This document shows, in pieces, positions 1,076 through 61,824 of a stretch of DNA of 64,000 nucleotides. The notes beneath the pieces are model-generated. The model saw only the letters and a program-made list of their open reading frames with translations. It searched no databases and was not told the DNA's origin. Position 1 is the first letter of the stretch; every line of letters begins with the position of its first letter. Source of the stretch: Leptasterias polaris (lineage: Eukaryota > Echinodermata > Asteroidea > Forcipulatida > Asteriidae); NCBI GenBank assembly GCA_037783415.1, contig JAZGTN010000002.1, forward strand, positions 992,001 through 1,056,000. The letters are read 5' to 3'. A program made the translations under genes and the position numbers.

Positions 1076-1887
1076 TTAGTTATTAACCAAATGTTGGTAG
1101 TCGTCGACATCGGTGGTTGAAAGAGCGCCCTCCTTTGATTTATTAACTTCCTTTCTGTCCAAGTGATCGTACGGGGACGTGTCATCATCGGCGGCTGCCA
1201 AACCGGGGTTCGAGATTATTGCAACCTCGTATCCTGAGTGTTCTTTTTGAGATTTGGGCTCCGTGGTTCGGACCAATGGGGTATAGGTGTTATTGTCGTA
1301 GCTTATGGATTGCACCCCTGTCGTTGAGGTTGCATCATGACTTTCCTTTGCTTCTTCGTATCCGGATTGCTTCAAAGAGGAATTTGTGGATTTATTTCGG
1401 ATCAGTGGAAAGTAGGAACCGTCGTCTTCATTGGAGAAAACCTCGGTTAGTGACTCGATCGGTGACGTCACATCGCTTTCATTGGCCGCAATGTGGGACT
1501 CAACCTCGTGTCCAAATTGTTCACTTAGAGACTTCGTATTTCCAGTGGGTAACAAATGAGCCTGGACCCCTGTGATCGAGTTAGTCAACTCGACCTTATC
1601 AGCGCTTCCCCCTCCACTTTCATTCCCCACTTCATCATCCTCATCGTTCCTGTTGAGCACAAAGTATGGATGTTCTTTGGCATCGTCCGTGGCTGTGTCA
1701 TGTTCCTTGATAGCTGGTATTTTCATTTGCCCACCTCTGTAACCACCCTCGCCTACAGAGTAGTAGGTGTGGTCATCCTGATCTGAATCTTCCTTTGAAG
1801 GCATCGCTGATCGGGGGTCATATGAGTACGAATACTCCATGCTACTGTCGGGTACCGGTAGATCTGGCAGCTTTGCTCTCGGTGCGT
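1076..1887 (-). CDS. receptor gene A, exon 6: cytoplasmic tail
   Basis: Single open frame of 270 codons after the phase-1 acceptor at 1888-1889. It begins RAKLPDLP, followed by the Y-rich juxtamembrane motif EYSYSYDP that matches YxYAYDH in the paralogues. The tail is acidic and Ser/Thr-rich, and its tyrosines sit in YFVL, YFPL, YTPL, YDHL and YQHL. Only S-P-Y-D-H-L fits an ITIM-like S-x-Y-x-x-L. The end, DDYQHLVNN, matches NYQHLEV in gene B and QYAKLNV in D and E. Confidence 0.85.
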
Positions 1888-4800
1888 CTGTTATAATGTG
1901 AAATAATGACTTGGAAATTAATTTACATTGACCTTAATTGACAGTGTCAATAGTTTGATGAGTAGGCCTTTTCCTTGATGATAGGCCAAAACAAGGAGTA
2001 TTTTGAACAACACAAGATACAAAAAAATTCTTATGAAATTGGCAAACATTACTTACTCCTTGTTTCCAACTTGACACTTGACAAATCAGCAGGTTTACTA
2101 TAAAAAACAAAAGCAACACCGTTAGTGTATTAAGTAACTTAAAGGTTTTGTGTCGTCAGTCTTTCCTAAAACATTTTGTTGGAGCGCCCTCTCTTACTAC
2201 GCTACTCTAGAACGATCTCGCACTTTAGCGATTACCATAGTCGATGGGATGGGCTGACGTACCAACACGCTCGTTTGCCCATTTTCCGTGACCTTATTAC
2301 CCTGGTCTTCCTGTTCGCAAAAGACTCTAACGATATCAAATGTAGCACTGTTGTAACCAGAGGCGTAACCAGCAAAAATGGCAGCTGCTGGAGCTACCCA
2401 CCTCAACCCCCCCCCACTCCACCCTCCTTCTATTTACACATCCTAAACATTATAGTTTGGGTTTTGGTTGTTATTTCACCTGTTCAGTATAATGGTCAAG
2501 GTGTCATCAGTTTATTTGAAATGCTGTCCTTGTTATTGTTCTTCTTAATTTATGAATCACAAGCTGTTGTCTCGTAGCAGTTGAACGTAATGTCTTTCCT
2601 CAACTGATCTTGTTTTAGAAAAAAATATACTTTCCCATACCTTCCCTAAAGATTTCTCCCCCTACCGATTCAAAAATCACTCTTATTTACCCAAGTGTCT
2701 ATTGATTGCGTTCGGAAATACAATAGATGAGTTGAAAGAAACTTACTCTGTTTGCTTCATGAATGACGGTAGTCTTCCCTGCCTGTGAAGACAGAACACC
2801 ACGGCACCGATGATCACAAAGAGGAGTAGAAGAGAAAACAGAGACCCGAGGACAATGACTGCTACATTGGTTTCAGTTGTGTCTTGTTGATCAGTAGTGG
2901 CGACTTTTGCTGTAGGATCAGGGTCCATTCGCTTACATCTTAACAACAAAAAGATCAAGAAATTCTAATAACATCTAGCATCTGTTCAAGGGTCTGTATA
3001 CGTTTGGTAATGACTTTTAAATTAATATTAATGGCAATAAAAACTTACTTGGTTACAAGTACAGCAGCTTTCGATAGTTTAAAGCATTTTGAGAATCATT
3101 TCACTTCGAAGTAATGTAGTTATGGAAAATATATCATGTTTTATGCCCCAAAATTTGTATCTGAGAAAAGTTTCTGTCAGAAACGTTTCTCAGATTGTGT
3201 AACCATAGGAACATTCTTCCTTGTGTGGACAACATTTTCGCTCCCGTTTTTCGCCGATATCTCAAATGTTCACAAGTTTGTTATTTTATGCATTGCAGTA
3301 TGTCGTGTCGAGGGTGGGTACCAGCCTTTGACAATTACCAATGTTGTCCATGTGATGCATTTGAGAGCGTTAACAATGAATTTGTAAGAATTGTTGTATG
3401 TTTTTGTTGTTCACTATCATGTTGGTACATATCTACACTTATATAAGATTAAAACAATCGAACGGTTCCAAAAACAACATGTATACTTTGCCTTTAAACC
3501 TTATAGAACAAATCCTTTCAAAGAAGCTTAACTATGACTCAAAATTAGTATTCAAAACGAACATCAAGCTAATCAAAATTGAGAATGCCCATTTTGCCAC
3601 CACTCAACAATTCTTACAAACCCATTGTTAATGCTCACAAACGCATCACAATCTTCAGGATTGTTTGCTTACGGCACATGGACAACATTGGTAATTGTCA
3701 AAGGCCGGTATCCACACGTGACATGACATACTGCAATGCATAAAATAACAAACCGGCACAGTCACGAGAAAAATAGTGAACAATAAAAACATCCTTGGTT
3801 GTTTTCAAGCATCGAGTTTTGGTCCTAAACTTATTTTGCCAATCATAACTAGGTTTACTAATGAAAAAACACACCACAAAATCAAAAACTATAGCCTTTC
3901 AGGCAAAAAAAAATGGGGGAAATTTTTTCATACCATGTAAGTAATGTACAAATCTGCAAGTGTTTATGTTTTTAATCTTACCAATGTTTTGCACACCCTT
4001 TTACGGTAAATAGCTTTATAAAACTAGGCCCTTGTCCACATTCTTACACAGTGTCAGGTATCGTTTGGTTTTGACAGATACAGAACCTTCGCGTTGGATC
4101 TTTGCGGTAAACGCACGTTCCTCTGCCGTCCATATACTGACAAACGGTGGCATCACTGTAACCACAAATCCTATTCTGATTCAAATTGCAGCCCCGACCT
4201 GCATCTTCAAGAGAAACGAAACAAAAACAAGCGAACGCGTCATCAATTTATTGCAGTGTAATGATTATAATGACCATAATGTGGTACGTCCTTATATAAT
4301 TTGGTTTTACCCTTACCGATGCACAGTTACACTCAGACAGTACAACATCTGCTCTGCAATACAAAGGTGGTGGGTTCGAATCTCGAAGTGATTTGCCAGT
4401 GGATTTTTTTCACAGAACTTGGGAAAGTACTGAGTATACTGTGCTTATCACACATAAAGTGTAAGGGTAATAACCAAATTATCAGCTTTATCCCCGGTGC
4501 AAAAAAATTAACATCTATTAAATCATTCCGTCGTGACACCCGCGTGAAATGTTCCACATGCATAACCCTTTCAGTACCGCCGTGCCATAGCGGCTCAAAA
4601 CAACATCCCACTTGGTGACCAATGAGCCCGTATGGCACGTAATTATTAGCACTCTTGGTGACCAATGAGCCTCTGTGGCACATCGACAAAAAGTAAGTTA
4701 TCAAAATGTTAATAGCCCCCTCAATCGCCTGCGTCCATCCCCTTGGCAACAAGCTGGCCGCGTGTGCCCTGAAGCGTCGCAAGTTTAAAAATTTTACCGG

Positions 4801-7800
4801 GATCGTTAAGCGTCCCCCCACGCATTCTTGAGTAAGAGATCATTCTGACAACATGGCCGAAGAAAATGATAACATTTTGGAAGAAATTTTCGCAGACAGT
4901 GGTTCAGAAATGTCATCTGACGAGGATTCGCCACTTTATGACTCGGAGACGTCAGAAGACAGTGAGGATACAGAGCCGAGGGCCTCGACATCAACAGCAA
5001 CATTAACCTGTTCTAAGAAGGGTAAGAAGACCAAAAAAAGCCGAATTTCAGGTGTGGATGGCGTGAAGCCAACTGTTACACACGGCGACCGCCTGTTAAA
5101 TTTACAGCAAACACCGGGGCTACAGAAGACTTCAGTTCGTTCTCCCCCATACAAATCTTCAAACTGTACTTTTGTGAAGCAGTGTGGCAGATGATGGTAC
5201 TAGAGACTAATCGTTATGCTGAACAAATATTGGGAGCGGGGGCAGAAAATAAGTGTGCATGGAGACCAACTGATGTACCTGAAATGATGGCATTTGTGGC
5301 CCTACTTCTTTGCATGGGAATCAACAAAAGGCCTCGTTACTCCATGCATTGGTCCAGGTCTGAAATTCTACGAAGTCCCCTGTACTCAGCAACCATGGCT
5401 CGTAACCGATTTACTGCAATCCTAAGATTTTTTCACCTCGCCAATAACAGAGATGTCGAGGGCGACTCTCCCCGTGACAAACTTGCTAAATTACGGCCAC
5501 TGTTAAACATTGTACTACCATCATTCCTCCGGGTGTACCAGCCGGGACGAAGCCTTTCACCGGACGAGACGATGGTCAAATTCAAAGGACGGGTGAGCTT
5601 CAAGCAGTACATGCCAAGAAAAGCCGCAAAATGGGGATTGAAATATTTCTCATTGAACGAATCCGACACAGGGTACACATGTGCCTGGGAGTTGTTCACA
5701 GGATCGCAGCCCAGGTGCCCACAAGGACAGTCCTCTGTAAGTGATCCTGAGACAAACCATCCATCCGAAATAGGGGCACCAGGCAACATAGTATTGAACC
5801 TTTTGCAGGGACTCGAAAATAAAGGACATATTGCATCTACATGGACAATTGGTTTACTAGCCCGGCTCTGTTCTCCAAGTTGTCTGAGCTAGGATTCGGA
5901 GCTTGTGGAACTGTGCGCTATACCACCCTAGGGATACCCGACGTAGCAAACTCCAAGAAATTTCCTATGAAAAGCGGTGCAGATCCCAAATTTTTTCAGA
6001 AAGCAGGCCAACTATGCGTTATGTGGCAGGACACAAAACGTGTCACTCTCCTCTCAAACTATGGCGATTGCAGTGTCACTAGTAAAAAGATTCGGAGCCG
6101 GAAAACTTCAACAGGATTTGTCATATCAAAAAACCGTGCATAGTCGAGGATTACAATAAATACATGGGGGGCACGGATCTGGCAGGACAATTATGCACGT
6201 ACTATACTCATACCCACAAAACATTCAAATGGTGGAAACGTGTATTTATTACAATCCTAGACATATGTTTGCTCAATGCTAATGTCGTATACAACAGCAT
6301 CCATACAAACAAGAGCTTGTCTACTTTGGATGTTCGGGTCAAGGTGATAGAGGCACTTATTTCAAGCTTCGAGAACAACCCAGTTCACCATGCCCGTAAA
6401 GTGTCAAGTGCTTCAAACGCCCTTTCAACTCAGCACTTTCCAGGTCCGAATGTTGACGGGAAGAAACGTGACTGTGTTGTATGCAGTTCCACCTCTAATC
6501 GGAAACAAACTCGCATGATTTGTAAGCAGTGTATCAAGCCAATGTGTGTTATACCATGCTTTGAGAAATACCACACCAAGCGATAAATTAGGTCAACAAT
6601 TCAACTATTAAGTTAATTATGTAAAAAATTTGTAAAGCGGTTATACCATTATTGGAGAATTTCCACACCAAACGAATAATTTTCTAAACTTTCTGAATAC
6701 TCCCCCCCCCCCCCCCCCCGCTACAATGTTGAATCCCACAATCGCATGCCTGCCAACAATCAACATTGAGGCGGGGGGGGGGGGAAATGGTACTTAGAAA
6801 AAACAAGTATAGCATGGGGGGGGGGGGGGTGATGGTACTTAGAAAAAACAAGTATAGCACTTTGACAAAATGTAATGTTAGTTCCTTCTTTACATATTGG
6901 TTCATGATAGGTGTAAATTTGATTTGAGGAGTAATTTTTGTCCAGTTCCTCTCTTCTGTTTATTGAATGTGCAATCCTATGAGCGGGTTTGGGGGGTGCT
7001 TCAAAAGGAATTTATTAAAACATGTTTTATGTTTGTTTCTTCTTTACATATTGGTGAATGATAGGTAAAACATATATTTTATGAGTTATTTTGTTCGAGT
7101 AACGTTCATATTGTGCTTAATCAAACTTCTCTTGTTTATTTTTAATGTTATAATAATCAAAATGGCCGCCTTTTAAAAGTGACTGAACCACCATGGCAAT
7201 TAAAAATTTTGTATGTGAGGCTCATAGACGGAGATACGGACCAAAACCTTATTTATTGGCGGACATTTTTAAATGGGCAATATTTAATGTTCTTTTATGT
7301 CAGTTCCTTCTTTGTCATTAAATGTAGAAAAAAATTAAACTTTAGATTTTACCAGTCATTTATTTCTAAGTCATATTGTGCGTAATCCAAACTCTCTTGT
7401 TTATATTTAATGTCTTTTCCTAGGAGCGGGTTTTTTGGGGGGGGTTGCTTCCTAAAAAAAATCTTAAAACCTTTTGTTTTTTGGAGGATTCATAATTTGC
7501 CAACAATCTAAATGGCAGCCTTAACCAATTGATCAACATGGGTATAGTCACCAACTCCCAGTATCGGTGAGGCTCAACCAATATATATTTTTGTTTGGGC
7601 GGGTTTGGGGGGGGGGGGGGGGGAGGATGCTGTTTGAAAAGTAATATCTTAAAACCTTATGTTTATTTAACGTTTCAAAAATATGTCTCATGCAGATTGG
7701 TATGAACAGCTACTTGACAAATGTTTAGCTTAAACATTTAAACTACTCAATTGTGTATTTAGTGGTCATAATACCATACCTCAAATATATGTTTAAGGCA

Positions 7801-9697
7801 ATGATTTAGTCCAAGGCAATATGCCCAAGGAAACAGTAATTTCATTGCTTGCTCAACTTGCATTATGTGACTAGGACCTAGGCTAACCCCAATCTGCCTT
7901 GTGAGGGCGCTGTAACCTGAAACTTTCCTAAAATAGTGTTGGTCACCAGGTAGCCATGTCAAGGAAATGTCTCTGGTCACCATTGCATAAGTAGCCAATA
8001 TGTGTTGGTACTGAAAGGGTTATACGAGATGCTTTTGAGGACGTTGGGTTACGTGTAGCAGTACGCGAATGTGGGATCCCTGCTGTGTGCGTGGTGAGAA
8101 ATGGTTTGGAGTGTAGTGTGGCTAAAATGAAGCGGGCTTGCTTGCGTAAAATAACCTAAGACAAAAGGCACATGTAAACTTACCTTGTGTCGTGTTCCTG
8201 CACTCATTTGAGCAGTTGCTGCTACAAATCTGCTGACACAGCGTTTTTGGATAGTTTCCCCTTTCACAATTGTCAGAATGTTGTTCGCATCGATTCCTAT
8301 ATCTCAAATAGACAATAATCAGTCATAATATTTAGAAACATCATCATAGGTATACCAGTATATTTGCCTTAAGTATCAATGTCTGAAAAATGAACGAGCT
8401 TCTAAAAAAAGAAAATATAATTATGTTCTCCTTGTTTTCTTTTTTTAATGATCAAAAATGTTTATAATACAAAATCTAGAAAGTTTTCAACAGTGAAATT
8501 TGAATCAATTCTTGTTAGTGCCCTAAAGGGACAGGTACAACAATTGAAAAGGTAAAACAAATACTCAAGTTATTTCGTTCCCTCGAAATATTATGTCGTT
8601 CCCCCGAAATAGTATTTCGTTACCTCGAAATAATATTTTGTTCCCTTCAAATATTAATTCGAGGGAACGAAATAAGTTATTTCGGGGAATGAAATATTAT
8701 TGCGAGGGAACGAAATATAGTTATTTCGTTCGAACGAAATAACATTTCGGGGGAATGAAATAATATTTCGAGGGAACAAAATAGTAATTCGAGGTAACGA
8801 AATAGTATTTCGAGGGAACGAAATAATTTTGAAATTTGTTTTACCTTTTCATATTTTTTTCTTGTTGTCCCTTTAGGGGCTCCGTATTTTGCATTCTCTC
8901 ATAAAACGTTATTCATATAACCAAGTTCTGTGATTCACAAAATGGGGGTTCGAATCCCTTAGTGGCCAGTCATATCTCTTATACTCTTCAGAGATTAAAA
9001 CAATTCGTCCGAATGCTTTGTCCTTCAAATCTTATTTTAAAGGGCTACAATACTTTATCTTGTAGGTACAGTAAAAAGCATCAGGTTTCGTGTACAATAT
9101 TGTAACCGCTTATGCTGGTAGAATATATTTTGTCGCGTTGTTTCTCGTTTATAGCAATTAGCAACTCAAGTAATTTTATTTTTGGTTTTGGAGGCTTTGT
9201 TTTTTTCTCAAATACAAATTGCTCCCATGTTATTTACTAGTGAAAAACTTACACAAGTGTGTAAAAGCACCTGCAGTTAGGGACCTGTTGTTGTCCCTCT
9301 TTTGTTTGTACTCAAACTTTTCGGCAACAGCTCCCATTGGTTTTGTGCACGTTTTCCAGCCAGGGACCATGCTGACTCTCGAAATGAATGCCTATACCTA
9401 CCCACAATATGTCAGTTAATTAAATGCACCCATGCCCCTCTGTCAATATAGGTCTGCAAATACATCAGAACCGTTTACTAAAAAGTCAAACTCTTTATTA
9501 CTTGGCCCACTACAGTCTTACCCTTTACATAATCGGTTCCTCATCATTTGAAGGGAACTCAGCAATGGCTCTGGAAGCGCCTGCTGTGCTGTACAAAGAC
9601 CAAGTCGTTCATATAACATCACCACGACGAACACTTTCAAACTTAGTGCGACTGTCCTCGGTCCGAGTCCTGTTTGTGCCGTCCACGCCATGGTCAT
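1076..9697 (-). CDS. receptor gene A: six-exon type I membrane protein with multi-YxxL tail
   Basis: Assembled by hand from splice sites. Exons, 5' to 3' on the minus strand: 9697-9522, 8296-8184, 4204-4048, 2938-2747, 2097-2057, 1887-1076. The intron phases are 2, 1, 2, 2, 1, and the joined frame is open for 496 codons plus stop. Order: signal peptide, short Cys-rich module, EGF-like module, transmembrane helix, short linker, long cytoplasmic tail. The tail has five YxxL motifs (YFVL, YFPL, YTPL, YDHL, YQHL). The same layout and phases recur in genes B to D, which is the best evidence that it is a gene. A piggyBac element lies in intron 2 on the opposite strand. I do not recognise a named family. 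Single-pass signalling receptor is inferred from the layout; ligand and partners are unknown. Confidence 0.82.
2057..2097 (-). CDS. receptor gene A, exon 5: linker
   Basis: A 41-base exon between TATAG and GTAAGT. It encodes about 13 residues (KPADLSSVKLETR) just inside the membrane. Phase 2 in and phase 1 out, as in all paralogues (32-35 bases there). Confidence 0.75.
2747..2938 (-). CDS. receptor gene A, exon 4: last EGF-like Cys, stalk and transmembrane helix
   Basis: A 192-base exon with phase 2 at both ends. It opens with CKRMDPDP, whose Cys completes the EGF-like module of exon 3. A short Thr/Gln-rich stalk follows, then a helix of about 25 hydrophobic residues (VAVIVLGSLFSLLLLFVIIG and onward) and a basic stop-transfer HRQGR. 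The donor is GTAAGT. Confidence 0.85.
2993..3352. mobile_element. dispersed MITE-like repeat in intron 3 of gene A
   Basis: One copy of the window's commonest repeat. It begins TATACGTTTGGTAAT and ends with the inverted form ATTACCAATGTTGTCCATG. Inside are the shared blocks GGCAATAAAAACTTACTTG, TTCGATAGT and GATATCTCAAA. Related copies lie at 10697-11070, 11577-12180, 19085-19425, 44545-44920, 46845-47206 and 55963-56336. No coding capacity. Confidence 0.75.
3672..3790. mobile_element. partial inverted copy of the TTTGGTAAT repeat
   Basis: The terminus GACAACATTGGTAATTGTC, followed by the block ATAAAATAACAAACC, matches the end of the repeat at 2993-3352 in opposite orientation. The remainder of intron 3 up to exon 3 is AT-rich and otherwise unremarkable. 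Confidence 0.6.
4048..4204 (-). CDS. receptor gene A, exon 3: EGF-like module
   Basis: A 157-base exon, phase 1 in and phase 2 out (acceptor CTTGAAG, donor GTAAGA). It carries the family core CGYSDATVCQYMDGRGTC. The cysteine spacing is C-x7-C-x7-C-x8-C-x10-C-x-C, and the last Cys comes from exon 4 (x9). The C-x-C-x9-C end is EGF-like, with one more Cys than a classical EGF. The same core recurs in genes C and D as CGYRDAIVCQYEDGRGSC. Confidence 0.82.
4853..6586 (+). pseudogene. piggyBac transposase, three frameshifts
   Basis: Acidic N-terminus (MAEENDNILEEIF), then the DDE_Tnp_1_7-type core. Recognisable blocks: SPDETMVKFKGR with the first catalytic Asp at 5563, YMDNWFTSP with the second at 5844, and YNKYMGGTD with the third at 6176. 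The C-terminal Cys-rich ribbon has CVVC, CKQC and CFEKYH near 6470-6575. The frame changes near 5145 (in a CCCCC run), near 5838, and near 6130 (in an A run). Full-length product is therefore impossible, but all three aspartates and the ribbon remain, so the loss is fairly recent. The first ATG at 4853 fits the usual start. Confidence 0.88.
6770..6870. repeat. short tandem duplication with poly-G spacers
   Basis: A block of about 33 bases containing ATGGTACTTAGAAAAAACAA appears twice in tandem, each copy preceded by a run of 11-13 G. It lies in the noncoding part of the piggyBac element. A C run is at 6703-6719. Confidence 0.8.
8184..8296 (-). CDS. receptor gene A, exon 2: Cys-rich module
   Basis: A 113-base exon, phase 2 in and phase 1 out, between TATAG and GTAAGT. 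It encodes six cysteines in about 38 residues, including LCQQICSSNCSNEC. Gene B has HCQHICVADNCLQC at the same place, which supports a shared small disulfide module. I do not recognise the fold. It lies about 160 bases from the right end of the piggyBac element. Confidence 0.8.
8519..8883. mobile_element. fold-back element built from TTTCGTTCCCTCGAAATA units
   Basis: The termini are inverted: GCCCTAAAGGGACA at the left and TGTCCCTTTAGGGGC at the right, followed inward by GAAAAGGTAAAACAAAT and its complement. Between them are about a dozen roughly 20-base units (ATTTCGTTCCCTCGAAATA or the complement). The left half is in one orientation and the right half mostly in the other, so the element can fold on itself in many registers. 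It lies in intron 1 of gene A. Confidence 0.85.
9522..9697 (-). CDS. receptor gene A, exon 1: signal peptide
   Basis: Starts at ATG 9697 (a second in-frame ATG is at 9691). The hydrophobic core LKVFVVVMLYERLGLC is followed by a plausible cleavage site near CTA/QQ. The exon ends in RLCK at a phase-2 GTAAGA donor. The TGLGP and KVFV pieces match exon 1 of gene B, and the Cys two residues before the donor is conserved (FCK in B, FCAH in C and D). Confidence 0.8.
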
Positions 9698-17473: not shown

Positions 17474-18231
17474 TCACACTTCCAAATGTTGGTAGTTGTC
17501 GTTTTTATTTTGTCCAGAAAGGGCACCACCATGCGACGCCTTATACGAATCTCTCACTAAGTGGTCGTAGGAGGAGGAGGTTGTTTGCTCGGCCCCGGTG
17601 GTCTTTGGGCTGAGGCAAGAGCAACCGGGGGTTTCGGACTCACCTTGCACATTAAATGTGGCAGGATGCATCACCCCTTCAACCTCGTTTCTATCGGGTT
17701 GTTCATCTGGGGACTTGTGATCTATATTATTTGGAAGTAGTGGAAAATATATATTAGTCTCTTCTTTTTTATTAGTAAGAACCTCTTTCAATGAGGATGC
17801 CACACCGCCTTCATGAGGCACAGCAGCAACCTCGTACCCAGAGGCTTCATTTGGTGTCTCTTGTTCCTCAGTTGGGATCAATGTAAAGTAAACAGTGTCG
17901 TTACCCTCAGTTGAACGACCCCCCGATGAAGAGTCAGTCACCTCAACTACTGCATCGACGGTTCTTTCGTCTTCACCCGTCACTCTATTGTCCTCTTCTT
18001 TTACTGGTACTTCTTGACCTTGGGTTTCTTGAGCGTCCTCAGTAACGCCATCCTTCTCTGGAGATGACGCCTTTCTTGGTACATTATGGTGGGAGCTCCC
18101 CTCTCCGTCGTCTACGTAATCGTATGCGTGGATTTCTGCACTTTGATTCGGTGACAGGTGGTCGTACGCGTATGAGTAACCAACACTGCCACCTAGTGTT
18201 GGTGGTTCGGGTAACTGCGCTCTGTTCGAAC
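17474..18231 (-). CDS. receptor gene B, exon 6: cytoplasmic tail
   Basis: 252 codons after the phase-1 acceptor ATTTAG. It opens NRAQLPEPPTLGG, then YSYAYDHL. Acidic, with YDYV, YFTL, YFPL, YDHL and a terminal NYQHLEV. The 22-residue gap between the last two motifs is too long for a classical ITAM. S-S-Y-D-H-L fits an ITIM-like consensus. Confidence 0.85.
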
Positions 18232-21200
18232 CTAAATCAAGCAAGATCCAAAACAGACACAAAATGATTTTGGATATTTAGTAAACTAAATTATTCTTTG
18301 ACGTTTGGTTTTAAGTTAACATTGGACAGATCGGAACTCACACCATTATTCGTTTGCTACCCGCCAAAAGGCAAGTTGCGGAGATAATTAAAATTGCGCC
18401 ATGTTTTATTCTAACAAAAAATCCAAAAACAGTGTTGGATCATCGTGGCTGTGTGGTAGGAGATCCTGACTTGAGTTTTTTATATCAGTACTTACCATTA
18501 GCTGCCAATTCGACATCTGACGAGACCCTGTGTTAAAGCAACAACACCAACAAGTGAATTAGTTTTATTCAAAATTGCTCTTTCCTTCAGATTGTTTGTT
18601 CACTGTAAAGTGTGATTTTGTGTTGTTTGTATTTCAACAAATTAAAGGGTTGTTGTATTGACCTTTGACAGATTGGGAACTGATTGTTATTTCGACACTG
18701 CAATATTGTACTGATGTTTTTTTTTAAATAATAATATTCTCTCTGATGTTCGTTGTTTATTTAATTCTTCATTTGCATATTATTTTATTGTATTGTATTT
18801 TATATTTTTAAGTTATTATTATTATTCTTTTTTGTTATACTAATAACAATCATACATAACTTACATAGATGGCTGTCCGGACGAGTGTCCTCGTCTTTGA
18901 AGGTACAAAACGACGGCACCGACAATGACAAGCAGGAGTACCAGGGACAAGATCCAGCCTAGAATAATGGCTGTCACGTTAACCTCGTTCTCATCTCCAT
19001 CATCATCAACGCATCTTTGGGGTGGGAGGAGAACAAATTAAGTTGAGTGCTGCCTAGGGTGCATTCTTTATTTACTACTCTTCATAAACAGGGTATACTT
19101 TTGGTAATTGTTAAAGACCTTGGTGTACCTCAACATACTTATAAAATAACAACTTGTGAAAGTTTGGGCTCAAGTTTGTCATCGAGGTTGCAAAAAATAT
19201 GAACGAAAAAATACCCTTGTTGCATAGAATTGTGTGCTTTCAGGTGCCTGAGAATGGCTCAAATAAAAAATGTTGGGAGAAAACCTACCTCTTTCTGTAA
19301 TTATAAAACTTCAAAGGGTGCCACTTCTAACAATGTTTTTTGAAATCGACAGCTCTCTAGGGCTCATTACCTATGGTCTCAACTTGTGGAGTAATTACCA
19401 AAATTACACCTTGTCTTTAAGTTAGGAATTCTGCCTGTGGCACCATAATGCAAATTGTATTTTCATTTGGGTCTCTTTATAATGACCGATTAATCACTGA
19501 ACGTGAATGGGTTGTATTTCATTTGCGATTGTACACACCAACACTTTATAACGCAAGATTTGAAGTCAATGATCTGACGTACACTATTAATTGCACGTGT
19601 ATATTAAAGCACGTAAACAAAATCCGATGATCAATCAATTTGTGACTAATCCGTGGCCGAGCGGATAAGAACACCGGACTCAAGCTCTCGGTGTTTCTGT
19701 TCAGCAGAGTGTGGGTTCGAGTCCCGGTCGTGACACTTGTGTCCTTAATAAGCAGAACACTTAACCATTATTGCTGCGTCCTTCGGATGGGACGTAAAGC
19801 CGTAGGTCCTGTGTGTTGTGTAATGCTTGTAAAGAACCCAGTGCACTTATCGTAAAGAGAAGGGGTTCGCCCCGGTGTTCCTGGTTTGATTGGCTGCAAA
19901 TTGCGCCACAGCACCTTGTAAACCATTACATGGTGCTATGAAGGAAAAAGTTCGCATACTTCAAAAACGTAGCGCTTTGATACGCCCCAGGGGTGTGATA
20001 GAGCGCTATATAAGAACCAATTAATAATATTATTCGATTGAAGAGAAGTGGCTCACTATTGAAGTAGCTCGTTCTGGTTGAATTCAGTAAACTAAGCTTA
20101 AAGACCTACTTGAACGAAAACGGCAACACGTGGTCTTTGCTGAAAATCATTTTTTTAAATTGCAATCAATGAGGAAATTGGCTTCACATATGAGATTAAG
20201 CAAAGTTTAATTGTGTAAAAAACATATCATTTTGAATTCTCTTCTCTCAGCTGGTGCTTTTTAGAAAGATTCGCAAAAAGCCATGTTACGTCATCACTTA
20301 TACGTCATATGTGGGAACTCCGTTAATTTGTTTAGCCGCTTTGTTGCAGAATGGAGGTATGAAAAAGCAATATCCCACATATGACATCAAAGTGTTAGTT
20401 TCAGATTGGAGCCTAATTGTGTGATCAAAAGGTACGACAAAATCAGAAGAGTTCAAATTCAAAACTACTTTTAATATGATAAACAAACACATTATAAATA
20501 AGTTCAAATAGCATTCTCATTAAAACAAATCCTTCGCTCAAGTCGTTGTTTTAAATGTGGCTTCTCGTTTGAAAGTAACGAAGATCGTGCAGCCATTTTG
20601 AATACCAAATTGATCGATCATTGTAATAATTTGAATCGCTTACCTGTTTAAATTGGCCAAATGGTCTCGACAGATACAACTGGCATGTTCCTTGTTGTCT
20701 CCGGGTTCACAGGTGCTATTTTGGCAAGTGACATCGTTGTGATGTAAACACAGATTTTCTTTACGCAAACCTTGAGTACCTAAAATATTGTTTGATGTTC
20801 AAAGGGGGGAAAATCATTGTTACTTCGGTATAGTTCTAAACTAATTGAGATCTGTCGGGTTTATAAACGCAGAGTCTAACCAAGCTGCTAGCCAAATTAT
20901 CAAGAAAAATACAATAAAAGTCACCCGTGAAAGTTTCAGCTGAATACAATGCCAATGTGGTATTTTCATCAAGAACGCCAAATTCATCCCTGATTAGCGT
21001 TGTTTGGGACCAACCTTATCTCTGGCCGATGAGGGCAGCCTTCAAACTGACACCCCGTACATATCCAACAGTCGCCTGCAGGCGATCTTTTGGGATTCAA
21101 TTTTCCCGACGTACTTTTATTGAATTCTACTCAATGGGTACAGTTCAAACGAAACCATTTCGCAGGATGCCTACTACAATCACCGTCTCGATAAACGGCA

Positions 21201-45458: not shown

Positions 45459-46288
45459 TTAGACATTTAATTTTGCGTATTGGTCGTCATCCTCTTTCTC
45501 TGGTAACTCAACCCTTTGCGATGGGATGCCAGTATTGGTGTTAAGATGATCGTATTGGGACGAGGCATCATTTATCTCCGCAGCTGAAGGTGGCTTTTTA
45601 AGAGGCTCGTACCCAGATTCTGCAGGCTTTGTAGTTTGCTGCAACGGCATATAGGCTTGAACGTACCCCTGGTTTGAAAAGCCCCCTGGGGTTGGGTTCG
45701 CAGATTCATCCACCTCTCCGAATACTGTTTCATTGTCATTATCTTGTGGATGCTCCAGTTTAAAATATTTAGGATCTTGGGGGGTCTTCTCGTTGCTGCT
45801 TTGCTCTGTGAGTGATCTTCTCCGGACTTCATCATAGTTAGGGGCTTGGGGAGTCTTACCACCAATTGCAGCGTAACCTAATTGCTCTAGTTCGAAACAT
45901 TTTGAATCTTGTGGGGTCTTCCCGGTGTTTCTTTGCTCTTTGTTTGGTCTTCTTCGGACTTCGTCATATATGGGAGCTTGGGGAGTCTTGCCACCAGACG
46001 CAGCGTTGCTTGCTCGCTCTATTTCATAATATTCAGGTCCACGTAAGGTCTCCCCAGCCTTCCGGCCGTCATTTGATTGCCCTAGTTCGTAGTATTTAGG
46101 AACTTCTTGGGTTTCCTGATTATTTCCTAAGGCAATCGATGGGCTTCCACTGTGCTCGTTTTCTTCGTAGCGATTCGCAGGCTTGGGTTTCCCCGGGTTG
46201 GATGCTGGGTTCCTCTGAGGCCAGTGATCGTACGCGTAATTGTATTCAGTACCGCCAAGTACCAGTGGATCTTGCATCTGTGCTCTGC
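45459..46288 (-). CDS. receptor gene D, exon 6: cytoplasmic tail
   Basis: 276 codons, begins RAQMQDPLVLGG. Compared with gene C I count about 47 replaced residues in 273, against few silent changes in the stretches compared base by base. The C-terminal half is close to gene E (SLTEQSSNEKTPQD, VELPEKEDDDQYAKLNV), the N-terminal half is not. Confidence 0.87.
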
Positions 46289-49200
46289 CTGAAAATCAGG
46301 AAAACAGAAGAAAACTTTTTAGAAATTATTTATATTGTACAAACAAAAACGGGATCATCAAAGTTTCAGGAAATTATGTTTAAACTTTGACAAGTGAAAG
46401 TCTCGGTAAACAGTAAGAAATGCAATCTGAAACCCCTAAAAAAGAAAATCTTTATTATTATTCATGTAGATGTGAAGTTTTAAAGTTATTATTTATTCAT
46501 CACATATCAAATAGTATTTTGGCTGGTTCAGTTAAAACAATCTTTTCTCTTAATCCAAAATGAGATTGAAAAATTGATGAAATGCCTTATAAGTGCTTGT
46601 AAGTTGGCACGGAAGTGTATCAAGTTTAGCAGATTTGATGATAGCAGCGTGTTGGTCTTCCCCTTCACTTTGAGCTTTAAACTTGCAGAAAGTAGCGGTC
46701 TGAATTGAAAGGATCAATTCTTGTAAAAAAATATAAAAAAATACTTACCAACTGAACTGACATCGGGAGAATTTGTGGGACTCCTGGAGAAAATGGATAT
46801 GACAATGATATTATGTATTGTTTTCAAAGTGTAATTTAAAGGCACTAGACACGTTTGGTAATTGTCGAAGACCAGTATTCCCACTTGGTGTATCCCAACA
46901 TGTGCATAAAATAACGAACCTGTGAAAATTTGGGCTCAATTGGTCATCGAATTTGCAAGAGAATAATGAAAGAAAAAACACCCTTGTTGCATTACTTTGT
47001 GTGCTTTCAGATGCATAATAAAAGGCTTCAGCAAGAAGTCTTTTATTATTTGAGTGAGAAATTACCTCTTTCTCAAAAACTACGTTACTTCAGAGGGAGC
47101 CGTTTCTCACAATGTTTCTCACACAGCTCTCCGTTGCTCGTTACCAAGTAAGTTTTTATGCTAACAATTATTTTGAGTAATTTTCAAAAGTGTCCAGTGC
47201 TTTTAATATCTAAATGGTATACGTGAATTTGGAACACAGGAATTAGTTGTTCAGGAAGTGTTTTCAGTTTAGCTAACATGCTTGGCTTTTGTATCAATTC
47301 AGCTAGTTTCTTGTAGTAAGCCTATATTTTCCGTTATTGCTTGGAAAGGAATAGATTTAGAAATACATTTTTAACGTGTCGAAGTTGAGCTTAGAGTGTT
47401 GAGTACATGTTGTGGTGGGTTTTGTTTTCAAGCTATTTTTGATTTTTGTTGTTGGTGGTTTTATTTGTTGGTTGCATTGTACTTAATGCTATTTTGTCCG
47501 CTCCTCCTTTTCCCTCCTTTCAATGTTCCAGTTGAAGATTCAGAGTTGTCTGTTCACATAAATAAGGATACAATGATGGCCCCAAAGGTACATGACACAT
47601 CACAAATATCTTTAAAATGTGCTCATCATTTGCGAGACCGCATATGTTTGCAAGCAGTTGCACACCATGTTTCCAATTTGATATCTCATCAGGGCCACCA
47701 TGGGATACCTTTAAAAAATAAAATTAAAAAATCAATACTTACGTTGTTACTTTCTTCCGGGGTGTTTGGTTCCTTCTACGCTTCACTAAACACACCACTA
47801 GAAGGACCAGGAGAACAATAACCAAGATGGTTCCGAAAACAATGGCTATGATGTTGACATCTCCAGTTGTCTGGTCACTCTTTGACGAGTTTGCTGATAA
47901 ACTCGTTGTGGTTTCAATTTCCAAGCAGCTTCTATTTCATTTAAAATAAAAACTGCAACATTAGGAAAAACCCGAGTTTGTGAATATACTGATATGCCAG
48001 GATAAGTACAGTAATATTGATTTGTTATGATTTGGTTCAAATGTTTTAATGTCCAAAATTATGTCGTTTTAATGTGAATTGATGCCAATGACATCCTATC
48101 AATAGAGGATAAAGCACGGGAAAAAGTAAAATGGAAGTTTTCTTTGATGTATACGTGTTTAGTAGAAAGCTATCACAACAAGCATACACTGGCATCTAGA
48201 AATTGGTCAAAAATAAATGTGTTGATAACTCATTTGTGCAGTATTTTTCTGTATCAAGTACTCGTATAAATACTTGGTATTTTGGCTGTTGGACTCGGTA
48301 TCCAGCTGACACTTGTACTCGTCGTGCTCGATGGCCGAAGTTCTCGTACTCGGAGATTTTAGTACTTTGTACTCCGGGCTGATGGACTCGGTTCTCAGCT
48401 GACACGTGCACTCGTACTCGATGCCCCAAGTACTCGTATACTCGAGTACTACTCGGCAGTAATCTACTAAAAGGGACTTGATAACAACACTGCCCCAAAG
48501 TACAACAGAACATCATGCTTTTGTTTTTCTTGTTATCCTCAGGAGTGTTCAAATTGGAAACATGTACGATGGTTCAAAACGAACACAGATTCCTGAGTCC
48601 TACATTCAAATACCTACACAAAAAATGAAAACTATTTGTTCTGAGGTACACTTTAAACCCTCCTGAGACAAAATTAACCCGCATCCAGGATCCTATCTGG
48701 TCAATATGACCCGAAATCTGTGTCAAAATTACACAGATGTGGGATCAAACTGACGCAAGATTCAAGTTCAAGCTCAATCGTTTAACCAGGTTGCGGGTCA
48801 GCCTAACCCAGACATGGGTAAGGCTTAACCCAGACACGGGTCAGGCCTTACCCATGCATGTGACATGGAATTCGGGTCAAAACTGACCTGGGAGTTTTTA
48901 GAGTGTAACTTGTGGTGAATCGTTGATACCCTGAGAACGTCTACAGAAAACAACTATACTTTCTTGAACACACATTCTTTCGCTAGAACAATTCTCGTTC
49001 AAAACCATATAGTTATAGAGGGGAAAGCATTTGGACTAGATCAGTTTTCCAATGGAGCTTCAAAAAAGCGAATTTGCTGTTTATCTAACATCAAAATACA
49101 TACCCTCTGATTTGAGACGCCTGTGCGTCAGATACTGGCCATATGCCATTTTCTTTACACACGCACAGAGGTTGTACAGACATAGAGGACGAATTGGAGT

Positions 49201-50853
49201 AAATGCATGAACCTCTACCGTCTTCATACTGACACACGATGGCATCGCGATAACCGCAAACATAAACTTGGTCATCTTCAATACATACGGAATGTTCTGC
49301 AATAAACAAAAAAACGATAGGAAAGACTTTTCATTCGACCAGCGCAAAAAAATAATAATTACCATAAAAGAGGTAAATATGAAAATTATTTAACCCTTTT
49401 GTTCTGAGGGGCGTTCACTGTCTTGACTAACTACCATCCATCTTGCATGTGTTTAAATGGAGATGTATCGACACTTCACACCTATATGTGGCGCGTCGTG
49501 GCCAAGTAGTTAAGAGCACCAGACTCAATCTGTGATGTTTCTGATCAGCAGAGTGTGGGTTCGAGTCCCAGATATGACAATTGTATCCTTGAGCAAGATA
49601 CTTTACCACAATTAATTTGTCCTTCGGATGGTTCATTAAGCCGTAGTCCCGTGTATTATAAATGGTAGTGCACGTAAAAGAACCCAAAACACTTATCAAG
49701 GAAGAGTAGGGGTTAATTAATCTCGGTGTTTCTGGTTCACATAGTAATCACCCTTGTTTACGACCCGTTCACTTCTAAGGCATCCTTCATTTTATTACCA
49801 GAAATATATAATAATAATAATAAGATTAAATTTAAAAACTGTCGCTCTTGCGTGATTATTAGTTCTGAAAATCCATTCGGTTTGACAGGATTTTAGAAAA
49901 TAATGTAATAATTTAAATGTCATTATCATTTTACCCTTACAACCCGAATTCATCATTTTGTTTTAGTCTGTTTTTAACTTTGTCCTTGCGCTAACAGATT
50001 GGAGGCTGCTTCGATGCCTTTTCACCAAATTTATATGAACGGTTTATGTTTATTTAGAGATAACTTCAGAGAGAACAAATATAAACAAACCTGTGTCGAG
50101 ACATTGGTTAGAACTACTTCCACAGCAAATATAGCGTACATCTTCCTCAGGCATGCAACTATCCCTGTCAATCAAAACACAACTGTCAACTTAAACAACT
50201 AGACAAATTAGTCATGACATGATTGTTAATTGACACTCGAAAATCCCCCCCCCCCCCTTCTCTGATCCCAACTAAGTCTCAAATCACAAAAATCCTATTA
50301 ATATTTTTCTACTCAGGTCAACCAGCTACGTTCAGTAAAAAAATGTGTGTACTTATTCACAGAATTTAGAGATTTGGGACATAACAAGAAAACCTGCACG
50401 TCTCTATAATAAAGTGTCGTGTAAAATAGAAACATTTAATTTGTCCACTGTTCCCACCGTTATATCGTCTAATTGATTGCGCTAGAAGGAGTTTAGCCAT
50501 AAAGGATTTTATTTGTTTTACAAACAACAATTTATTTGATTTTCAAATGTTTTAAAAATTAGTTTAGAAAGTTGACTCCCCTTCTTGGCTGTTCCCATTA
50601 CTTATGTTGCTGGTCGTTTAGTAAAATACAATTGTTTCTGTAACCTTCGCCGATATCACCAATAGGATAAGAATAAACGAGATGATTACCCTCCGTGCGC
50701 ACAAAAGTGCATCGTTATTTTTGGCATCACGTACTCTCCTTGCAACTCATTTGGGAGGTTACGAGCTGACGCAGAGTACCAGCTTGTCCATGGTCCCCCA
50801 GTCAAGACGGCAAACAGAACGACGCACATTATTTGGGGCATCGGTGTCCTCAT
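45459..50853 (-). CDS. receptor gene D: six-exon membrane protein, short stalk
   Basis: Exons: 50853-50690, 50164-50091, 49296-49104, 47931-47743, 46783-46749, 46288-45459. Phases 2, 1, 2, 2, 1; open frame of 494 codons plus stop. Same plan as gene C, but the stalk has only the last repeat-like unit (SSKSDQTTGD), 81 residues shorter. The tail keeps KYYEL, EYYEI, IYDEV, NYDEV, KYFKL, YMPL, YEPL, YDHL and YAKL; the fourth repeat has Cys for Tyr (KCFEL). A MITE is inserted in intron 4 only in this copy. Confidence 0.84.
46749..46783 (-). CDS. receptor gene D, exon 5: linker
   Basis: 35 bases, CTCCAG to GTAAGT, encoding SPTNSPDVSSV. Phase 2 in, 1 out. Confidence 0.75.
46845..47206. mobile_element. 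MITE inserted in intron 4 of gene D only
   Basis: Termini AAAGGCACTAGACAC and GTGTCCAGTGCTTTT, inverted, followed inward by TTTGGTAATT and its complement. Genes C and E have uninterrupted sequence here (GTGTAAATAACTATTAAATT), so this is an insertion with empty sites in the paralogues. Contains AACCTGTGAAAATTTGGGCT and TTTCTCAAAAACTACGTTAC. Confidence 0.88.
47743..47931 (-). CDS. receptor gene D, exon 4: short stalk and transmembrane helix
   Basis: 189 bases against 432 in gene C. Reads SCLEIETTTSLS directly into ANSSKSDQTTGD, as though the repeat array had been removed by recombination. Helix IIAIVFGTILVIVLLVLLVV, then KRRR. Confidence 0.86.
48240..48455. repeat. TACTCG-rich block in intron 3 of gene D
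   Basis: Near-identical copy of 30290-30505. Confidence 0.75.
48646..48907. mobile_element. MITE with TACACT ends in intron 3 of gene D
   Basis: Same element as 30700-30932, with one extra tandem block around 48810-48840 (AACCCAGACATGGGTAAGGC). Confidence 0.75.
49104..49296 (-). CDS. receptor gene D, exon 3: EGF-like module
   Basis: 193 bases. CGYRDAIVCQYEDGRGSC is identical to gene C at protein level; only three residues differ over the exon (SVQ, CKE, GIW), with about as many silent changes. The module is far better conserved than the tail. Confidence 0.83.
49488..49750 (+). mobile_element. tRNA-derived SINE in intron 2 of gene D
   Basis: Copy of the SINE at 31521-31780 carried by the segmental duplication. 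Confidence 0.82.
50091..50164 (-). CDS. receptor gene D, exon 2: short Cys-rich module
   Basis: 74 bases. DSCMPEEDVRYICCGSSSNQ and CLDT, with three residue differences from gene C. Phase 2 in, 1 out. Confidence 0.78.
50690..50853 (-). CDS. receptor gene D, exon 1: signal peptide
   Basis: ATG at 50853. MRTPMPQIMCVVLFAVLTGG, then SASA as the likely cleavage site, LPNELQGEY and FCAHG at the phase-2 donor. Confidence 0.82.
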
Positions 50854-53344: not shown

Positions 53345-53517
53345 CTCGAATTGCAGAAACGTGATCTCAATTTGTCCTTTACGTAGTCTCCCTGCAACTC
53401 AATTGGAAGCAGCTCTGCCTGTGATGAATTGATTTTCCAAGTTCCATCACCCAAGAAGACAAATACGATCATAGCCACACGGAACATTGTCGGCTTTACA
53501 GACCTCTTCTGGTCCAT
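53345..53517 (-). CDS. orphan signal-peptide exon, distal first exon for gene D?
   Basis: ATG at 53517 (or 53487). Open frame, hydrophobic core, LPIELQGDY, FCNS and phase-2 GTATCT donor all preserved from the copy at 41847-42019; GDETW reads GDGTW. Because the LINE is partly deleted here, it lies only about 2.5 kb upstream of gene D exon 1. Confidence 0.65.
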
Positions 53518-54703: not shown

Positions 54704-54945
54704 CAGGCCTGTAACCGGGGGGGGGGGGGGGGGGGGGGGGGACAAAAAAGTCCGCCCCCCAAAAAAAAAAAAAAAAAAAAAAAAGCCAAATCAAACAATC
54801 TATATAAATCCGCCCCCCCCCCCTCAAAAAAAAATCAAGCCCCCCCCAACCCTAAAAGTCCGCCCCCCCCCCCAAAAAAAAGAGAGAAAAGTCCGCATCG
54901 TAACTTTATTCGCCCCCCAAAAAATAATTCCTGGTTACGGGCCTG
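54704..54945. mobile_element. hAT-like MITE, duplicate copy
   Basis: Same element as 43221-43449, with CCTGTGAC at 54696-54703 and 54946-54953. About 13 bases longer, mostly because its leading G run is longer. Confidence 0.87.
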
Positions 54946-59118: not shown

Positions 59119-59397
59119 TCGTCTATGTTTACTGCACCGAGGCATTCAGGTAAATAGGTTGGTGGTTTTTTGCCCCCGACCTTTCACCTCTTTGGACCCC
59201 GGTTTGAATAGGATGGGTTCTCCCAGTTGGGAAGTTTTCCTCCCACATCAAAAACCGACATTTCTTCAACATCTTCTCTTCACAGGTATCTTCGGGCCAA
59301 CACGAGTTGCACAGTATACAAACTACACTTTATGAAAATTAACATAAATTTCGCGCTTTCGAAATCTTATTCCACAGGGGGCCGGGAACCCTTGACA

Positions 59398-59616: not shown

Positions 59617-60446
59617 TTAGACATTCAATTTAGCGTATTGGTCGTCATCCTCTTTCTCTGGTAACTCAACCATTTGCGATCGGATGCCAATATTATTGTT
59701 AAGATGATCGTATTGGGACGAAGCATCATTTCTCTCCGCAGCCGAAGGAGGCTTTTTAAGAGGCTCGTACCCAGATTCCACGGGCTTTGAAGTTTGCTGC
59801 AATGGAATATAGGCTTGATCGTACCCCTGGTTTGAAAAGCTCCCTGGGGGTGGGTTCGCAGATTCATTCTCCTCTCCGAATACTGTTTCATTGTCATTAT
59901 CTTGTGGGTGCTCCAGTTTAAAATATTTACGATCTTGGGGGGTCTTCTCGTTGCTGCTTTGCTCTGTGAGTGATCTTCTCCGGACTTCATCATATTTAGG
60001 GGCTTGGGGAGTCTTACCACCCTTCATAGCATCACTTAATTGCTCAAGTTCAAAATATTCTGAATCTTGTGGGGTCTTCCCGGTGTTTCTTTGCTCTTCG
60101 TGTGGTCTTCTTCGGACTTCGTCATATTTAGGAGCTTGGGGAGTCTTGCCACCAGTCGCGGCATTGCTTGCTCGCCCAATTTCATAATATTTAGGGACAT
60201 AGGGGGTCTCCCCACCCTTCCGACTGTCATTTGATTGCCCAAGTTCGTAGTATTTAGGAACTTCTTGGGTTTCCGGACTATTTCCTGCGGCAATCGAAGA
60301 GCTTCCACTGTCCTCGTTTTCTTCGTAGCGATTCGCAGGCTTGGGTTTCCCAGCGTTGGATGCTGGGTTCCTCTGAGGCCAGTGATCGTACGCGTAATTG
60401 TATTCAGTACCGCCAAGTACCAGTGGATCTGGTATCTGCGCTCTGT
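59617..60446 (-). CDS. receptor gene E, exon 6: cytoplasmic tail
   Basis: 276 codons plus stop, beginning RAQIPDPLVLGG. Motifs: KYYEL, KYYEI, KYDEV, EYFEL, KYDEV, KYFKL, YIPL, YEPL, YDHL, YAKLNV. Sequence up to about base 60100 follows gene C, and sequence below about 60000 follows gene D. LSDAMKGG at 60015-60040 is found only here. Confidence 0.87.
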
Positions 60447-61824
60447 CTGAGGATCAGGGAAACACAAGACAATTTGTTAGGAATTATTTATAATGTACAA
60501 ACAAAAACAGGCTCATCAAAGTTTCAGGATTTTGACCAGTGAAAGCCTCGGTAAACAGTAAGAGAGATGCAATCTGAAAAACCATATAAAATAAAATCTT
60601 TACAATTATTCACATATATGTGAAGTTTTAAAGTAAGTATTTATTTATCACATATCAAATAGCTTTTTAGCTGGTTTAGTCAAAACATATTTTCATTTAA
60701 TAAAAAATGAGTTTGAAAAAAGGATGAAAAGCCTATTAAGTGCTTGTACTAAAGTTTGCCCGAAAATGGTTCAAGTTTCGCGGATTTGATGATAGCAGTT
60801 CGTTGGTCTTCACTTCACTTTGAGCTTTAAATTTGCAAAAGTGGACTGAATTGAAAGGATCAATTCTGGTAAAAAATAAAAAATACTTACCAACTGAACT
60901 GACATCGGGAGAGTTTGTGGGATTCCTGGAGAAAATGGATATGATACAAAAAATAGGTATTGTTTTCAAAGTGTAAATAACTATTAAATTGTATTAGTGA
61001 ATTTGGAATACGATAAGAAACGAGAGTTATTAATTATTGTCTTATTAGCTGTTCATGAAGTATTTTCAGTTTAGCTTACATGCTTGGCTTTTGCATCAAT
61101 TCAGCTAAAGTCTTGTAGTAAGCCTATATTTTCTGTTATTGCATTGAAAGGAATAGATATAGAAATACATTTTTAACGTGTCGAAGTTGAGCTTAGAGTG
61201 TTGAGTACATGTTGTGGTGGTGGGTTTTTTTTCAAGCTATTTTTGATTTGTTTGTTGGTGGTTTTATTTGTTGGTTGCATTGATTTGAATGTTGTTCTGT
61301 CCGCTCCTCCTTTTCCCTCCTTTCAATGTTCCAGTTGAAGATTCAGAGTTGTCTGTTATACTTTCACATAAAAAAGGATACAATGATGGCCCTGAAGGTA
61401 CATGACACATCGCAAATATCTTTAAAATGTGCTTATCATTTGCGAGACCGCATATTATGTTTGCAAGCAGTTGCATAGATGTTTCCGATTTGATATCTCA
61501 TCAGGGCCACCATGGGTTACATTTAAAAAATAAAATTAAAAAATCAATACTTACGTTGTTACTTTCTTCCGGGGTGTTTGGTTCCGTCTACGCTTCACTA
61601 AACACACCACTAGAAGGATCAGGAGAACAATAACCAAGATGGTTCCGAAAACAATGGCTATGATGTTGACCTCTCCATTGTCTGACTGTCGGGACGCGTT
61701 GCTGTCAGTTGGCTGGTCACTCGTTGTCGAGGTTGCTGCTGTTGTCTGATCACTCATTAATGTTATTCGCCCTGATGGGTTCGAGCCTGATAAACTCGTT
61801 GTGGTTTCATTTTCCAAGCAGCTT
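59617..61824 (-). CDS. receptor gene E, 3' part: stalk, transmembrane and tail exons
   Basis: Exons 61824-61555, 60925-60891, 60446-59617, phases as in C and D, all open. The ectodomain and signal exons are not in the window: homology to intron 3 of gene C stops at about 62112, where a LINE begins, so they may lie beyond 64000 or be lost. Stalk with about two repeats (MSDQTTAATS). The tail keeps every repeat tyrosine, including EYFEL where C and D have Cys. C-like and D-like halves are joined in exon 6. Confidence 0.8.
60891..60925 (-). CDS. receptor gene E, exon 5: linker
   Basis: 35 bases, CTCCAG to GTAAGT, encoding NPTNSPDVSSV. Confidence 0.75.
61555..61824 (-). CDS. receptor gene E, exon 4: stalk and transmembrane helix
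   Basis: 270 bases, phase 2 at both ends. SCLENETTTSLSG, about two stalk repeats, then a divergent QSDNGEVN and the helix IIAIVFGTILVIVLLILLVV with KRRR. Confidence 0.86.

Follow-up and report, generated by a model that had tools for sequence, protein, structure and literature searches.

The 64,000-nucleotide stretch analyzed here (the window, in which all coordinates are positions) is taken from the Leptasterias polaris assembly GCA_037783415.1, contig JAZGTN010000002.1, positions 992,001 to 1,056,000. Between 1076 and 61,824 it holds a cluster of five related minus-strand genes, named g1 to g5 from its lower to its upper end, that share a type I membrane architecture with a tyrosine-rich cytoplasmic tail (Table 1). 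Exon-by-exon joining gave 6, 6, 6, 6, and 3 exons, respectively; g1 to g4 are complete, and g5 is truncated at the window end. AG and GT flank every internal exon boundary, the intron phases are 2-1-2-2-1 in g1 to g4 and 2-1 at both visible junctions of g5 (its entry phase being borrowed from the other genes), and the joined frames run without an internal stop to their own stop codons. Splice sites were picked by eye, and for exon 4 of g3 to g5 the nearer AG was skipped because it runs into a stop. A prior description made from the DNA alone (the sequence-only reading) had reported five minus-strand genes, four of them complete, with 27 exons, identical phases where visible, and the same end coordinates, and all of these were reproduced exactly. 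A check independent of model building came from sea star relatives described below: g1 residues 1-496 align end to end with protein P0001 and g2 residues 4-425 align with P0009, at 55% identity in both cases. Exon 1 encodes a signal-type hydrophobic N terminus, exon 2 a Cys module, exon 3 a second Cys module whose last Cys lies on exon 4, exon 4 the stalk and transmembrane (TM) segment, exon 5 a short linker, and exon 6 the whole tail. The TM segment is hydrophobic in all five genes (mean hydropathy 2.97-3.48), and the tails comprise 276-303 residues in the window genes and 157-426 in their relatives.

Table 1. Positions of the five genes and of the repeats and duplicated blocks associated with them (EGF, epidermal growth factor; LINE, long interspersed nuclear element).
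Feature	Position	Strand	Details
g1	1076..9697	minus	496 aa; 6 exons: 9697-9522 (signal), 8296-8184 (Cys module), 4204-4048 (EGF-spaced Cys), 2938-2747 (stalk/TM), 2097-2057 (linker), 1887-1076 (tail); AG/GT, phases 2-1-2-2-1, open frame; 55% identity to P0001
g2	17474..22700	minus	444 aa; 6 exons: 22700-22546, 21616-21513, 20779-20644, 19014-18865, 18527-18496, 18231-17474; groups with A. amurensis P0009 and A. rubens P0010
g3	27619..32882	minus	573 aa; 6 exons: 32882-32719, 32196-32123, 31321-31129, 29987-29556, 28925-28891, 28442-27619; 105-aa Thr/Ser stalk
g4	45459..50853	minus	494 aa; 6 exons: 50853-50690, 50164-50091, 49296-49104, 47931-47743, 46783-46749, 46288-45459; 24-aa stalk
g5	59617..61824	minus	at least 377 aa; last 3 exons: 61824-61555 (stalk/TM), 60925-60891, 60446-59617; upstream exons presumably past the window end
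33-bp repeat array	29681..29922	minus	7.5 copies; codes for the g3 stalk; g4 and g5 have a far shorter array
132-bp repeats	27934..28209	minus	about 2 copies in the g3 tail exon, duplicating tyrosine motifs; tail exon equivalents at 45751-46055 (g4) and 59909-60191 (g5)
g3 5' half	29950..33437		near-identical to 47894-51408 (g4); holds the exon-excess divergence
Shared upstream flank	39914..43980		matches 51407-55473; contains the LINE 3' part; 53 mismatches in 4017 columns; neutral reference

When 7993 candidates drawn from 5.8 billion sequences were scored with a profile built from g1 to g4, eight proteins reached E <= 1, among them P0001 at E = 9e-99, far beyond chance. P0001, P0002, P0003, and P0007 are labeled as uncharacterized proteins of Asterias amurensis; A. 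amurensis P0009 came from a wider profile and A. rubens P0010 (LOC117289873 isoform X2) from a g2 juxtamembrane query. The matches listed thus include at least six named relatives, five from A. amurensis and one from A. rubens, all of them uncharacterized, and no named relative from outside Asterias was among the matches listed in these three protein searches, which scored candidates sharing short words with the query. P0001, P0002, P0003, P0007, and P0009 each lie on a 26.3-Mb contig, presumably the same one, and P0004, P0005, P0006, and P0008 are encoded on short contigs. A FastTree tree placed g1 with P0001 to P0006 and P0008, with P0007 branching near the base of this group (support for the g1/P0004 pairing was just 0.30), placed g2 with P0009 and P0010, and left g3 to g5 alone without a close relative. 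The g2 tail shares 72-73% identity with those of P0009 and P0010, whose tails match each other at 96%, a gap by which the window would probably belong to a genus other than Asterias. Five pairs among g1, P0001, P0003, and P0007 were compared in the long N-terminal signal region (TAQTGLGPRTV...) and show 80-92% identity, being more alike there than in their ectodomain or TM region; elsewhere the identity of this region is lower (75% for P0001-P0002 and 52% for g2-P0009).

The part exposed outside the membrane is compact. Following the signal region, 14 Cys residues are present in seven of the nine full ectodomains (g1, g2, P0001, P0002, P0003, P0007, and P0009) and 12 in g3 and g4, spanning 76-103 residues from the first Cys to the last. 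The final six follow the spacing of EGF domains, with the sixth on the next exon (exon 4), the spacing being C-x7-C-x8-C-x10-C-x-C-x9-C in g1 and C-x7-C-x4-C-x10-C-x-C-x9-C in g2. When eight of the nine ectodomains (g3 omitted) were scanned against Pfam at E <= 10, no EGF match was found, in a scan whose HMMER filters discard most weak matches, and a profile of all nine ectodomains had no match at E up to 10 among PDB sequences. The label of EGF-like module given by the sequence-only reading therefore gains no profile support and agrees with the proteins only in the six-Cys spacing. AlphaFold models were poor, reaching at best a predicted local distance difference test (pLDDT) score of 66-69 over residues 101-140 of P0002, with no clear fold match. 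No immunoglobulin (Ig), sushi, or C-type lectin match was obtained by Pfam scans of whole g1, g2, g4, and six relatives or of the eight ectodomains, and the whole-protein scans likewise gave no match to multiple EGF repeats with an EMI domain; the sole lectin-type match was PF18560 (Lectin_like) on the P0009 tail, which scored 8.6 bits where the cutoff is 27. These scans agree with the earlier statement that no Ig or lectin domain could be seen. Judged by its sequence, the ectodomain appears to be an orphan Cys-rich domain. The stalk that follows varies from 13 to 123 residues across the ten proteins measured, with 51 residues in g5 (g3 and g4 in Table 1). Searches of the open-access PubMed Central literature listed no description of the family. 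The designation of the locus as an undescribed receptor cluster holds up on the type I architecture, on the relatives named among the matches listed being only uncharacterized Asterias proteins, and on the lack of a Pfam match above cutoff, of a PDB sequence match, and of an open-access description.

The ectodomain and tail were compared in 13 of the 36 possible pairs, and the ectodomain was the less conserved part in nine of them. The difference was sharpest for P0001-P0002, with ectodomain identity of 37/91 (41%; 23/77 outside the Cys residues) versus 232/280 (83%) in the tail. The corresponding ectodomain and tail values were 39% and 60% for P0002-P0003, 39% and 55% for P0001-P0003, 41% and 64% for g1-P0001, 45% and 63% for g1-P0002, 48% and 56% for g1-P0003, and 22% and 30% for g2-g4, and the ectodomain was barely lower for g1-g2 (30% and 32%).

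Divergence of the outer part was also evident within the array, where g3, g4, and g5 arose by recent segmental copying, a relation absent from the sequence-only reading. In exons 1-3 (signal plus the ectodomain as far as the fifth EGF-spaced Cys; gap columns omitted), g3 and g4 differ at 24 of 431 positions (5.6%), versus 32 of 3007 (1.1%) in the surrounding noncoding DNA (Fisher p = 1.1e-8). The excess persisted against the upstream flank (1.3%; p = 1.1e-7) and against three flank blocks pooled (121/8096; p = 2.2e-7), and it was present in each exon when compared with the nearest noncoding sequence: 10/164 in exon 1 (p = 4e-5), 6/74 in exon 2 (p = 2e-4), and 8/193 in exon 3 (p = 0.002). An unusually low intron rate as the source of the excess was ruled out by the likewise low rate of the upstream flank. 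Across the signal and the first Cys module, about 15 nonsynonymous differences over 187 sites stand against about 1 synonymous over 50, the first Cys module alone having 11.8 nonsynonymous versus 1.2 synonymous differences, and no Cys is altered between g3 and g4 in exons 1-3. The excess of exon over noncoding divergence, together with the lower ectodomain identity in nine of the 13 pairs, supports the earlier description of the genes as fast-changing. The main test omits the 3' half of the genes because the introns there are 10-14% diverged (introns 4 and 5); the tail exon differs by 8.7%, and the ratio of nonsynonymous to synonymous rates (dN/dS) in the tail is 0.48-0.71 among g3, g4, and g5. 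The array is a mosaic, since the 3' half of g3 is closer to g5 (93.9% identity over 27608-29743) than to g4 (87.3% over 27608-28976) and its 5' half is near-identical to g4. A 6.5-kb stretch parts two matching blocks at g3 and is absent between them at g4.

The tails are dense in tyrosine motifs. YxxL occurs three to eight times in 14 of the 15 tails analyzed (three to seven in the window) versus 0.5-0.9 times in shuffled sequences, an excess with p <= 0.001 in 13 tails and p = 0.037 in g3; the exception, P0007, has a shorter tail and none of these motifs. In this set the stretch taken for P0005 extends into the ectodomain of that protein, and P0006 and P0008 are represented by pieces of the tail. 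All five window tails contain S-x-Y-D-H-L and a C-terminal YxxL, and YxYAYDH is present in g2 to g5; g1 reads YSYSYDP instead, so that two of the three tail motifs described earlier as common to all genes are indeed universal and the third is found in four of five. The YDHL/YxxL pair is present in 14 of the 15 tails of window genes and relatives (as YEHL in P0004), the two motifs being 24-25 residues apart in 12 tails, those of the window among them, 23 in P0004, and 21 in P0005, with the last YxxL ending two to four residues short of the C terminus. SGYEVA recurs five times in the P0009 tail. The canonical immunoreceptor tyrosine-based activation motif (ITAM; YxxL/I-x6-12-YxxL/I) was rejected as a description of these tails, as 13 of the 15 lack it and g4 and g5 contain it once each (p of about 0.03 versus shuffles). 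Of the 15 tails, only those of g3, g4, and g5 have the inhibitory (ITIM) pattern [ILVS]xYxx[LIV] more often than their shuffles (p < 0.05), and YDHL fits it in g1 to g5.

Exon 4, which carries the TM segment, has phase 2 at either end in g1 to g4 and is thus symmetric there, and exon 4 of g5 ends in phase 2. The A. rubens protein P0010 reads ...CICSQDLKR followed directly by VSSDVELTANG..., which is exon 3 joined to exon 5 according to the g2 phases; it lacks exactly the residues that exon 4 would encode, and the frame is kept. Because this junction equals an exon 3-exon 5 join, P0010 represents an annotated A. rubens form without the stalk and TM helix. The TM exon thus appears to be dispensable in frame, as seen at the protein level in an annotated isoform.

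Several other elements lie among the genes. Intron 2 of g1 holds a piggyBac-like element (4832-6586, plus strand; Pfam DDE_Tnp_1_7 at 1.4e-47 plus zf-Tnp_2) whose coding region is scattered across several frames, and intron 1 of g1 holds an array of a partly palindromic 21-bp unit (8521-8878). A LINE between g3 and g4 (37036-41439, plus strand) contains a zinc-knuckle open reading frame just below the Pfam cutoff and a reverse transcriptase (RVT_1 at 3.6e-22), with only its 3' part in the duplicated block (51407-52937). A direct 1.23-kb tandem duplication between g4 and g5 (56661-57895 and 57892-59119) is 98.8% identical, and a 271-aa open frame in or near g5 intron 3 (62275-63090, plus strand), LINE-ORF1-like by impression, has no Pfam match.

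Tandem, fast-changing receptors with YxxL tails are typical of immune and allorecognition loci, the premise of the sequence-only reading. Because the outer parts change fast and the inner tails are rich in tyrosine, the genes are candidate recognition receptors, and the cluster may have an immune or allorecognition role. We favor, at about even odds (a probability near 0.5), the reading that it encodes germline-encoded, diversifying type I recognition receptors of asteriid sea stars that signal through Src homology 2 (SH2) proteins. By this reading, the variable ectodomain would bind protein ligands carried by other cells or by microbes, the receptors would cluster, and Src-family kinases would then phosphorylate the tail. 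The YDHL/YxxL pair could dock a tandem-SH2 effector, for example an SHP-2-like phosphatase, the repeated SGYExx and YTPL/YFPL sites would take further SH2 adaptors, and the balance of recruited proteins would set the threshold for a coelomocyte (or epithelial) response. Skipping of exon 4 would yield a form without the TM helix, and the germline would generate the repertoire as copies duplicate, exchange sequence with one another, and undergo selection on their ectodomain. The tandem-SH2 step may carry over by analogy from PD-1, for which passages of one report describe a doubly phosphorylated tail (Y223 and Y248, 25 residues apart) that binds the SHP-2 tandem SH2 domains 1:1 at 16 nM (PMC7078208). 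A bolder version, in which this germline cluster encodes sea star self/non-self receptors with a novel 14-Cys ectodomain in place of the Ig domain of the Hydractinia and Botryllus receptors, a tandem-SH2 switch tail, and a TM-skipped antagonist or ligand, is a long shot.

Several observations weigh against the recognition-receptor reading. The ectodomain-tail gap is small for g2-P0009 (64% versus 72%), and the trend is reversed in four of the 13 pairs: g1-g4 (37% versus 29%), g3-g4 (94% versus 83%), P0001-P0007 (40% versus 38%), and P0003-P0007 (43% versus 33%). A third flank block (44023-45131) differs at 36 of 1072 positions (3.4%), and exons 1-3 compared with this block alone give p = 0.058. 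Synonymous sites in exons 1-3 are raised too (about 5/93; p = 0.008 versus 1.3%), the EGF-spaced exon 3 alone has a dN/dS of 0.26, and the changes are clustered, with six within 20 bp of exon 2; taken together, these three features indicate that exchange with another paralog may explain part of the exon excess. In the tails, P0007 lacks the C-terminal YDHL/YxxL pair, and in each of the five window genes an Asp at -2 makes the last YxxL misfit the ITIM consensus. For PD-1 itself, only Y248 was indispensable in cells, according to the same passages (PMC7078208).

The fast ectodomain evolution and tandem duplication would be equally typical of reproductive proteins, and the genes could instead encode gamete-recognition receptors, proteins on the surface of egg or sperm that evolve fast and whose tail triggers egg activation or the acrosome reaction; the three to seven YxxL motifs per window tail and the fixed C-terminal pair are closer to immune-type tails than to known gamete proteins, and we regard this as rather unlikely. 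Receptors serving development or adhesion, with a small Cys-rich ectodomain that is diverse through weak constraint, would fit the EGF-compatible Cys spacing, the low dN/dS of g3/g4 exon 3, and the fact that even P0009 and P0010 differ more in ectodomain (88% identity) than in tail (96%). Weak constraint cannot, however, lift the nonsynonymous rate of exons coding for the signal and the first Cys module (about 15/187) above the noncoding 1.1-1.3% (p = 4e-8 or less), and the absence of a named relative outside Asterias among the matches listed also speaks against this explanation, which we hold to be unlikely.

Two further alternatives concern the array itself. If g3 and g4 were uncollapsed haplotypes or an assembly duplication, there would be fewer genes and the exon excess would be an allelic difference, and their noncoding divergence of 1.1-1.3% is within the range of sea star heterozygosity. 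Divergence amounts to 9-14% in the tail exon and in introns 4 and 5, however, the 3' part of g3 is closer to g5, the stalk arrays differ, and the 6.5-kb stretch separates matching blocks at g3 and not at g4, all of which makes this quite improbable; were g3 and g4 allelic with diverged exons, that would itself point to balancing selection. Transposons crowd the cluster, even g1 intron 2, as they might if some or all copies were unexpressed pseudogenes, but the four complete frames and the partial one show neither stops nor lost splice sites, the tail dN/dS values are below 1 (0.48-0.71), and the A. rubens locus carries an isoform label in its annotation, all of which makes this very improbable.

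Among known systems, the cluster would by analogy work most like the Botryllus fester co-receptors (FcoR), and membership in that family fails because no Ig or sushi domain was found. As described in parts of one report, FcoR of the fuhc locus are likewise type I receptors of an invertebrate deuterostome encoded at a multigene locus, of similar size (520-610 aa), with alternative splicing of exons beside the TM region and long tails bearing YxxI/L/V, where ITIM, hemITAM (half-ITAM), and bare YxxI/L/V motifs occur; unlike the 76-103-residue Cys-rich region without an Ig or sushi match found here, their ectodomain has Ig-V, sushi, and C2 Ig domains (PMC12065747). The same parts name Hydractinia candidates with ITAM/ITIM (PMC12065747). 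The locus also resembles the Hydractinia Alr complex of tandem transmembrane receptors, some with ITAM/ITIM-like tails, polymorphism being a feature of Alr, but the Alr ectodomains are Ig-like. PD-1, of the vertebrate ITIM and switch-motif (ITSM) type, shares two tail tyrosine motifs at a 25-residue distance (PMC7078208). The likeness seen is one of spacing; the last motif here misfits [ILVS]xYxx[LIV], and PD-1 has an Ig-V ectodomain. A single YxxL after acidic residues, as in EDDDQYAKL and DVDDYQHL at the tail end, recalls the hemITAM of CLEC-2 and Dectin-1, which are, unlike these proteins, C-type lectins of type II topology. MEGF10, PEAR1, Draper, and CED-1 combine a Cys-rich extracellular part with a tyrosine tail but have many EGF repeats and an EMI domain, and no EGF profile match was found here. 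The sea urchin SpTransformer (Sp185/333) genes (PMC8634487) are a tandem, repeat-bearing, diversifying echinoderm family. Their products are secreted, without a TM helix or tyrosine-rich cytoplasmic tail, whereas g1 to g5 each have a TM segment.

For sea stars, sections of one paper report that Patiria pectinifera coelomocytes respond to allogeneic cells and that adult grafts are rejected in Dermasterias; a histocompatibility gene complex is assumed there, and the word "receptor" does not occur in the main text (PMC9763293). The compact cluster offers a concrete candidate for sea star recognition, with diversifying ectodomains and immune-type tails. Should it prove reproductive or developmental, it would still represent a fast-evolving receptor family unseen by the Pfam and PDB-sequence profiles scanned. 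If the recognition-receptor reading is true, the logic of such receptors can rest on a new ectodomain rather than on Ig, lectin, or leucine-rich repeat domains.

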